Origin: Candidatus Saccharimonadota bacterium
GTDB taxonomy: Bacteria > Patescibacteriota > Saccharimonadia > Saccharimonadales > Saccharimonadaceae
Length of the DNA stretch: 64,000 bases
Direction: 5' to 3'
Assembly (NCBI GenBank): GCA_009781895.1
Contig: WQUV01000003.1
Span: 1 to 64,000, forward strand
Position 1 is the first letter of the stretch. Each line of letters opens with the position of its first letter. The notes below the pieces were generated by a model. The model was not told the DNA's origin, made no database searches, and saw nothing but the letters and a program-made list of their open reading frames with translations. Shown here in pieces: positions 10,444 through 13,348 of this stretch. Position numbers and translations under genes: made by a program.

Positions 10444-11835
10444 ATGATATCAAAAACAAAAATAAGATTTAATAAAATACCTCCAGTGTATCGTGCGGCA
10501 TTGGCGGTGGCTTTGTTTCTAGTGGCGGGTGTGGCGGGAGCGTTCTTGGTGGCGGGAGAGCGAAGTGAGGCACGAGAATTAACAGCGGCAACAATTACGC
10601 CAGCTGATTTTAATCCTGGTAATATTATTTCGGATGACGTCTTCTATAACTATAATTCGATGACGGCGGCAGAGATACAGACGTTCCTGAATGAGCGCAA
10701 CTCAAACTGTGACCCGTGGGGACTACGAAATAATCGTGCGGCACCGTTTCTAGCGGCAGGGCATACGCTACCAGTTACTTGTTTGCCAGACTTTCAGGGT
10801 AGAACGGTTGATCGTCCAGTTGATGCTTATTGTAATGGGTATGTAGGACGGCCGAACGAGACGGCAGCAGAGATGATTTATAATGTGGCGCGAAGCTGTC
10901 GGGTGAATCCGCAGGTTCTTCTAGTGAAACTACAGAAAGAGCAAGGCTTAGTGACTAGCCAGTTCCCGTGGCCACGACAGTATTCGGCAGCGATGGGCTT
11001 TGCTTGCCCAGACGACGCACCGTGCAATGAGGCATTTGCTGGATTCTTTATGCAGGTTTGGGCGGCGGCGCGACAGTTCCGAGTTTATCGTCAGGCGGAC
11101 CGCTTCATCAATGGCTGGTTCAGGGTTGGCCAGTATAACAATATCGGTTTACACCCAGATGCGAGTCGTAATTGTGGTACGCAACGAGTTTTCATCGAGA
11201 ACCAAGCGACTCAGGGCCTCTACTACTACACGCCATTTGTGCCAAATGCCGCAGCGCTACGGACGCTTAGTGGTTCGGGCGACAGGTGCTCGGTTTATGG
11301 CAACCGTAATTTTTGGGTGATTTTCTGGCGATGGTTCGGTAATCCGCATGCGCCAGTGGCAGATCGCACGACTCCAGTGCCAGATTTGCCAGAAGGGACG
11401 CATATTGAGCTATCGGGAGCATCGTTAATGCGACTGGATCTACGTGCGCAGATGTTGTCGCGAGTGGCGGCGGGCGCTACATTGGATCAGATTATGCAAG
11501 ACGTGAGCGTTAGTGACAATATCACTGTCAGAATGACAGAGAATGGGCAGGTGGTTGAGCGAGCGGCTACTGGGACGATTGTAGAGTTCTTTATCACGGG
11601 TCGCGATGCACCGTTAGTGACATGGAACGTTTCGGCGTTAGGTGATGTGAATGGTGACGGTGTAGTAGATGTGGCGGATTTGGTGGCGATACGATTGCAT
11701 TTGGCAGGGACGCGACCATTAACAGGCGAGCATCTGACAGCGGCTAATGTTTTGCCAGATAATGGTGGTGTGGATATTGGTGATTTGATCCGAATGCGAC
11801 AACTTTTAGCAGGTACTATTACGAACTTAAGGTAG
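10444..11835 (+). CDS. Secreted actinobacterial-type protein with C-terminal dockerin
   Basis: The start is set by the promoter 6 bases upstream, giving 463 residues. An N-terminal signal/anchor helix spans about 14-37. The main domain (about 45-300) has NPQVLLVKLQKEQGLVT, MGFACPDD, ENQATQGLYYYTPF and YGNRNFWVIFWRWFG. This set is known in secreted Actinobacteria proteins and looks like a lysozyme-like or peptidoglycan-interacting fold; its activity is not established. After a short linker domain, residues about 399-460 form a type I dockerin: GDVNGDGVVDVADLVAIRLHLAG is the first calcium loop plus helix, and DNGGVDIGDLIRMRQLLAG is a degenerate second one. The next gene, 10 bases on, has a cohesin-like domain. 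Confidence 0.85.
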   Translation: MISKTKIRFNKIPPVYRAALAVALFLVAGVAGAFLVAGERSEARELTAATITPADFNPGNIISDDVFYNYNSMTAAEIQTFLNERNSNCDPWGLRNNRAAPFLAAGHTLPVTCLPDFQGRTVDRPVDAYCNGYVGRPNETAAEMIYNVARSCRVNPQVLLVKLQKEQGLVTSQFPWPRQYSAAMGFACPDDAPCNEAFAGFFMQVWAAARQFRVYRQADRFINGWFRVGQYNNIGLHPDASRNCGTQRVFIENQATQGLYYYTPFVPNAAALRTLSGSGDRCSVYGNRNFWVIFWRWFGNPHAPVADRTTPVPDLPEGTHIELSGASLMRLDLRAQMLSRVAAGATLDQIMQDVSVSDNITVRMTENGQVVERAATGTIVEFFITGRDAPLVTWNVSALGDVNGDGVVDVADLVAIRLHLAGTRPLTGEHLTAANVLPDNGGVDIGDLIRMRQLLAGTITNLR

Positions 11836-11845
11836 GAGGAGAGGT

Positions 11846-12637
11846 ATGTTTACAGCTAACTTTACAGGTCAGGCGACCACACAGTTTTCGAACCAGTTTA
11901 CAACAAATATCGTGATCTCATGTGCGCAAGGGCGACCAGCGGGCTTCACAGCAGATTTGGTATTTGATAATACTCTGAACGTAACGGTAGCGAACCGAAC
12001 GGGCGTGACATTTAACGCAAATACTGGACGGATTGTGATGGAGTCGGATGGTGTGAATAATAATACGAGTGTTGCAACATTGACAGTGCGAAATCGTAGC
12101 TTGGCGGATGGGCAGTCGGGGCAGATTCGGCTGACGAACGTGAGGGGGGCCTGTATCGACGCGAGCCATAATGTGACTAGCCATAATATGACAACAACGC
12201 CGACTAGGACGGCGCGATTCCAGAGGCCAGTACAGCAGCCGCAGCCACCGCAGGATGATTCTGAGGATGATGGCCCGAGCGAAGAGTTATTGGCGATCGC
12301 GCGCGAGATAGGCGTATCGCATGAAGAGATATTGCGTTTAGCGACGAAATTTGAGATGTCACCAGTACGGCTTCTGGAGATCGCGCGGGAACTTGGGTTG
12401 ATCAATAGAGTGCACTCGCTAGAGGAGCAGCTTAACGTATTAGAGAGTCAGCTGCAAGAGTTCCAGGACGGCGAGATGTCGGGCGAAAGGAATGAAGGGG
12501 AGCGAGAGGGGATATTCCGTCTGCTCGATAACCGCTGGGCGTTCTTTGGGGTTGGTGCTTTTATGGCAACCTTGATTGCGGCGGCGATTGCGATTATTAA
12601 GAGTTTGGTGAAGGGCAGCCGAGAAGAGGCAAATTAA
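11846..12637 (+). CDS. Cohesin-like domain protein with C-terminal membrane anchor
   Basis: The 263-residue protein starts with a GGAGGAGAGG Shine-Dalgarno. Residues 1-120 are Asn/Thr-rich and beta-rich; GFTADLVFDNTLNV followed by VATLTVRNRSL and GQIRLTNVRG follows the strand order of cohesin and related cohesin-like sandwiches. A Pro/Asp linker (about 128-147), a charged helical region (148-215, with LLAIAREIGV and LLEIARELGL as a helical repeat) and a single membrane helix (about 232-252) follow, with a basic tail. There is no N-terminal signal peptide, which is odd for a surface domain. Expected partner is the dockerin of the previous gene. Cohesin assignment is by pattern, not by alignment. 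Confidence 0.65.
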   Translation: MFTANFTGQATTQFSNQFTTNIVISCAQGRPAGFTADLVFDNTLNVTVANRTGVTFNANTGRIVMESDGVNNNTSVATLTVRNRSLADGQSGQIRLTNVRGACIDASHNVTSHNMTTTPTRTARFQRPVQQPQPPQDDSEDDGPSEELLAIAREIGVSHEEILRLATKFEMSPVRLLEIARELGLINRVHSLEEQLNVLESQLQEFQDGEMSGERNEGEREGIFRLLDNRWAFFGVGAFMATLIAAAIAIIKSLVKGSREEAN

Positions 12638-12691: not shown

Positions 12692-13348
12692 TTAGCTGAA
12701 AGCATTAGCTGAGGCTGTGAGCGGGGGTAGATCGCAGGCTTTTCTGAGGCGATTAACTGTGTCAGTGACGTCGTAGAAGTCGCAATCGACTGGTCCGTCG
12801 TCGCTCAATTCGTAAGTAAGCATATCACCATCTGTAATTTTGAATCTACTGACGCATTTCTGCATGTTGGGTGTAGTGGGGGACGCTGCCAGTAAATCGA
12901 TAATTTCATTGAGGTCATCTTTGTATAGGTGGTCGCCAAAGCAGAGATAGATCATATCGTCTACGTCCTGGCTGTCTCTATGGTGTATGTGATGACGCGC
13001 TAATTGGACGACCGATTCTCGCACTATACTGAGTGCGCCGAAGGTGCTATCGTCTAAAAACTGGCTGTAGATAACACTCCAGTACTCGCTATCTGTCTGG
13101 GTAGCTTCGCGCAAGCGCAGTAGCTCGGCCATAGCCAAAACTTTGTTTTTTGGGAGCCCAGAATTGACGAGTTCTTCGTAGATAGCTTCGACGGGGAACT
13201 CTGCGAATTGATCCAAGCAAACTTGCATAAGCGCGTCATTAGCGCCTATGATTTCTGCTATTCTGCGTAGTTGGAGATACCCGTTTTCCCAGTCGTACGT
13301 GTCGCGGGATAGCTTTGCTAATTCTTTCTTTAAAAGTTCTGCTACCAT
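12692..13348 (-). CDS. Orphan acidic helical protein with strong Shine-Dalgarno
   Basis: A 218-residue soluble protein, mostly helical and acidic, with no recognised domain, signal peptide or membrane helix. A central HHIHHRD motif (around residue 117) is notable but not assignable to metal binding. The ATG has a TAGGAGG Shine-Dalgarno, and the leader contains TCCT upstream that can pair with it. The promoter belongs to the shared class described at 13391-13419. It is one of several orphan genes of this control type in the window. Confidence 0.65.
   Translation of the reverse strand: MVAELLKKELAKLSRDTYDWENGYLQLRRIAEIIGANDALMQVCLDQFAEFPVEAIYEELVNSGLPKNKVLAMAELLRLREATQTDSEYWSVIYSQFLDDSTFGALSIVRESVVQLARHHIHHRDSQDVDDMIYLCFGDHLYKDDLNEIIDLLAASPTTPNMQKCVSRFKITDGDMLTYELSDDGPVDCDFYDVTDTVNRLRKACDLPPLTASANAFS

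Follow-up and report, generated by a model that had tools for sequence, protein, structure and literature searches.

How Patescibacteria hold on to their hosts and act upon them has yet to be explained. The locus reported here can be compared with several described systems. Among cellulosome components the nearest are the anchoring scaffoldins, such as ScaE of Ruminococcus flavefaciens, where, as here, a secreted protein with a terminal dockerin is paired with an anchored cohesin fold. The present genome differs in having one cohesin fold and one dockerin, a membrane helix and no multi-cohesin scaffold, and we find no carbohydrase or CBM domain in the pair; because each genome has only one dockerin and one cohesin fold, this is not a cellulosome. 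Cohesins and dockerins are also described from bacteria and archaea outside cellulose degradation, with the same folds, but here each is encoded by a gene of its own, the two genes being neighbours, with a dedicated anchor and varied cargo, and the arrangement recurs across a family of bacteria with small genomes. A third likeness is to exported wall proteins of Micrococcales, which have a homologous N-terminal module of about 250 residues but carry LysM, LGFP, CWB2 or FG-GAP modules where the protein described here carries a dockerin.

Within the Saccharibacteria themselves, the cultured Southlakia epibionticum has an essential, envelope-associated dockerin protein, SEML1_0315; no partner was named for it, and its authors speculated that host glycans are involved (PMC10633639). 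Our search for dockerin-cohesin pairs in Saccharibacteria, Patescibacteria, Parcubacteria or the candidate phyla radiation, which left most subscription papers outside its reach, found no such title or abstract.

The dockerin gene and its neighbour

The window, by which we mean the whole stretch of 64,000 nucleotides that was analysed, belongs to a 678-kb genome in 14 contigs, the relatives of which are Saccharibacteria MAGs (one of them labelled Nomurabacteria) with isolate names that look like those of termite-gut samples; the bacterium itself is tiny and probably parasitic. A sequence-only reading of the window had described a gene ending in a dockerin and, 10 bases further on, a gene for an anchored, cohesin-like protein. 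Both open reading frames were found where that reading had put them, on the same strand, with the stop of gene 1 at 11835 separated by 10 bases from the ATG of gene 2 at 11846 (Table 1). On the 3' side of the pair and on the minus strand (12692-13348) lies a 218-aa gene with no match in Pfam or NCBIfam.

Table 1. Features of the dockerin gene (gene 1) and the cohesin-fold gene (gene 2), in window coordinates.
Feature	Position	Strand	Basis
Gene 1, exported protein with terminal dockerin, 463 aa	10444..11835	+	ORF, Pfam, PDB sequence match, relatives
N-terminal hydrophobic segment, preceded by basic residues (signal peptide or anchor)	10483..10554	+	Model helix 14-39; kept in 4 genomes
Cysteine-rich module of ~250 aa, common to Micrococcales and other Saccharibacteria	10591..11343	+	Alignment; pLDDT mostly >90
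Glu166 codon	10939..10941	+	Invariant in 42 aligned modules
Linker or small domain ahead of the dockerin	11380..11637	+	Low-confidence model region; kept in genus
Dockerin type I domain	11638..11829	+	Pfam, PDB sequence match, relatives
AGGAGG ribosome-binding site of gene 2	11834..11839	+	Read from sequence; 6 bases 5' of ATG
Gene 2, cohesin-fold protein with C-terminal anchor and no signal peptide, 263 aa	11846..12637	+	ORF, model, family comparison
Cohesin-fold beta sandwich, residues 2-126	11849..12223	+	AlphaFold2, PDB structure match
Helical residues 146-208, including a long helix at 173-208 (low-confidence stalk)	12281..12469	+	Model
Membrane helix, residues 231-251	12536..12598	+	Hydropathy

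The ATG assigned to gene 1 matches the start sites in its relatives, and the dockerin at the other end of the protein, as the sequence-only reading had it, is upheld both by a Dockerin_1 match (PF00404) with an E value of 3.5e-5 and 24.3 bits (cut-off 22.9), and by sequence matches to dockerins in the PDB (best E 7.8e-6). The first calcium loop is canonical (DVNGDGVVDVAD), and the second (11746-11784) is one residue longer, degenerate and devoid of ligands. An AlphaFold2 model of gene 1 is confident for the N-terminal module but not for the dockerin part, probably because just four alignment rows cover the dockerin. Pfam identifies no carbohydrase domain in the protein.

The module shares 41-58% identity with those of Micrococcales over the aligned part and has conserved cysteines. 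Of the modules to which the Micrococcales copies are joined, LysM, LGFP and CWB2 are wall-binding domains, and because of these fusions we propose that the module acts on cell walls; judged by its relatives, the cargo of gene 1 is probably a wall-acting enzyme, in which the invariant Glu166 would be a candidate catalytic residue. Searches of PDB structures and viral structures gave no significant fold match for the module, PDB sequences and phage records gave no significant match either, and no phage family covers this part of the gene 1 protein. The weak PDB fold matches include AtlE and LytB (E >1), which are GH73-type glucosaminidases, so that a likeness of the module to GH73 or lysozyme-like glucosaminidases is a lead and not a result. 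On a midpoint-rooted tree of the module the genus of gene 1 lies outside the main cluster of other Saccharibacteria, which suggests a separate exchange of the module with Actinobacteria.

Two observations concern module genes elsewhere in the Saccharibacteria. At several loci (L020, L023, L028, L033, L040, L041, L055, L063, L069, L074 and L081) a gene of 90-200 aa lies directly 5' of the module gene, and its product mostly has an N-terminal membrane helix or a lipobox, with a similar short sandwich-like tail at the end; it is possible that this, too, is an anchored partner, and there is no such gene beside gene 1 in its genus. One Saccharibacterial module protein (L074:2349-4361) carries a D-mannose-binding lectin domain, in the manner of lectin-like bacteriocins.

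For gene 2, a fold prediction of residues 1-120 had been put forward as the check on the cohesin-like sandwich, and AlphaFold2 does predict a sandwich, with 11 strands in residues 1-130 and a mean pLDDT of 85-95 per block. Foldseek comparison of the model with the PDB returns cohesins at each of the first 15 ranks, the best with an E value of 2.1e-6, at target-normalised TM scores of up to 0.63 and identities of 10-14%. Pfam Cohesin (PF00963) has no match in gene 2 or elsewhere in the genome at E values up to 10, and we therefore call the predicted head a cohesin-fold domain and not a Pfam cohesin. The membrane anchor that had been described for gene 2 is likewise recovered by hydropathy, as a C-terminal helix.

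Conservation of the pair

All four genus genomes have genes 1 and 2 side by side, and a strongly diverged version of the pair is present in G085, which belongs to another genus. Each genus genome has a single dockerin and a single gene 2 homologue, in line with the earlier description of a lone pair. The suggestion that the pair be sought across Saccharibacteria has a divided answer: among 394 family genomes the gene 2 sequence was found in these five and in no other, but the arrangement of a dockerin gene with an anchored neighbour is common in the family. A match in a further genome, G235, proved to be an unrelated protein.

Dockerins above the cut-off occur in 40 of 245 family genomes. With three dockerin matches left out as small cytosolic EF-hand proteins (L169, L173 and L181), we asked how often a gene within 100 bases on the same strand encodes a protein with a single C-side membrane helix by a simple hydropathy rule, and find such a neighbour for 25 of the 33 secreted dockerin genes examined and for 19 of 162 controls taken from the same loci (Fisher p 3e-13). 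The neighbours at L147 and L168 are probably chance matches, and the count without them is 23 of 33 (p 3e-11). Gene 2, which neighbours its dockerin gene on the same strand and has one C-side membrane helix, fits this pattern.

Seven family genomes have a Pfam cohesin, and in six of them it lies beside the dockerin gene. A profile of the family partner cohesins matches solved scaffoldin cohesins, and the NagJ cohesin (PDB 2ozn) is also among their matches. The profile of gene 2 aligns in register with eight family partner cohesins or close relatives, though weakly (E 0.0012, probability 19%). Cohesin likeness is weak or confined to short stretches in some other partner types, so that not all partners need be cohesins. 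The cargo domains of the dockerin proteins include subtilase, polysaccharide deacetylase, choline-binding repeats and BspA repeats. At three loci (L163, L166 and L174) the dockerin gene is followed, 58-93 bases on, by a gene for a protein of 1095-1369 aa that has a C-terminal membrane helix and a sandwich-like N-terminal region.

Of the 287 genomes sampled across the phylum at large, 79 contain dockerins. In some other Patescibacteria, dockerin genes stand in rows or dockerin repeats are numerous within one contig (G361:C36, G361:C33, G335:C27, G439:C48 and G336:C7), and these contigs differ in this respect from the single pair of genes 1 and 2.

A probable docking pair and its alternatives

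We consider it probable that genes 1 and 2 encode a dedicated, one-to-one surface docking pair. Gene 1 would be exported through its N-terminal signal, and its dockerin would bind the cohesin-fold head of gene 2, which would sit on a helical stalk held by the C-terminal membrane helix; the anchored head would thereby tether the module, probably a wall-acting enzyme, to the surface of the Saccharibacterium, where it could act on the cell's own wall or on that of the host. The tethering proposed in the sequence-only reading, for example at contact with a host, is partly supported. The dockerin sequence, the predicted cohesin fold and the membrane helix speak for docking, as do the adjacency and conservation of the genes, the occurrence of one dockerin with one gene 2 homologue in each genus genome, the family-wide enrichment of anchored partners, and the Pfam cohesins that lie beside dockerin genes. 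It is also consistent with docking that gene 1 carries its dockerin at the place where the Micrococcales proteins carry wall-binding domains, and the essential SEML1_0315 of Southlakia epibionticum offers a possible parallel (PMC10633639). Several observations count against it, namely the missing signal peptide of gene 2, its lack of a Pfam Cohesin match and weak profile match to the family cohesins, the degenerate second loop of the dockerin, the absence of a significant structural match for the module, and the dependence of the neighbour count on a simple hydropathy rule.

Neither the irregular second dockerin loop nor the missing signal peptide had been remarked on in the sequence-only reading; the latter bears on where the head resides. 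No signal peptide is present in any of the five gene 2 family members, compared with 22 of 22 other partners checked, and in all five the start codon leads straight into the sandwich, ahead of which there is neither a hydrophobic segment nor a basic residue. An overlooked upstream start is excluded by an in-frame TAA at 11828-11830 and, in the relatives, by stop codons in the same frame. Two possibilities are to be weighed: export of the head, driven by the C-terminal helix, or its retention inside, at the membrane, in some other role such as holding gene 1 before export, with no display on the outside. We regard a cytoplasmic head as unlikely, since the charge flanking the membrane helix is net negative before it and zero to positive after it in all five homologues, which suggests that the sandwich is outside and the tail inside, although this rule is weak for the anchor of gene 2 itself. 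Signal-bearing partners in the family moreover share the gene 2 layout, and two cysteines of the head are kept in the four genus homologues, though G085 lacks them. A further way of reaching the outside would be a +1 frameshift at the stop codon of gene 1, which would fuse gene 2 to gene 1 and lend it the gene 1 signal. Gene 2 does lie in the +1 frame in 4/4 genus genomes, with a one-codon window between stops, but in G085 it lies in another frame, which makes a conserved frameshift unlikely, and every gene 2 is preceded by a ribosome-binding site and starts with an ATG of its own; we have therefore rejected this explanation, the chance of which we put as very slight.

Gene 2 could also encode an unrelated adhesin that has a sandwich fold but does not bind the dockerin, in which case the two genes would be adjacent on account of a common surface role. 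The want of a Pfam cohesin match in gene 2 would agree with this, as would the weak or brief cohesin likeness of several partner types in the family, but an unrelated adhesin would not readily account for a list of PDB matches in which no other sandwich appears down to rank 15, nor for the position of the genome's sole dockerin next to gene 2, and true Pfam cohesins show the same arrangement. We hold this reading to be unlikely, and dedicated docking of gene 1 by gene 2 is the one that we prefer.

Implications

The signal-less head poses a separate and sharp puzzle in protein export. A wider proposition, which we offer tentatively and think doubtful as a whole, is that dedicated pairs are a general, modular means of holding single host-directed enzymes (the wall module, subtilases, a deacetylase) on the surface of Saccharibacteria, and that in one lineage the C-terminal membrane helix takes the place of a signal peptide in the export of the cohesin head. 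As similar gene pairs recur in many Saccharibacteria, these bacteria may secure their surface enzymes in plug-and-socket fashion, with no cellulosome. An anchored partner beside most dockerin genes offers a direct and testable mechanism, under which each enzyme could be assigned to the protein that holds it, and the effects of losing the partner could be compared with those of losing the dockerin protein.
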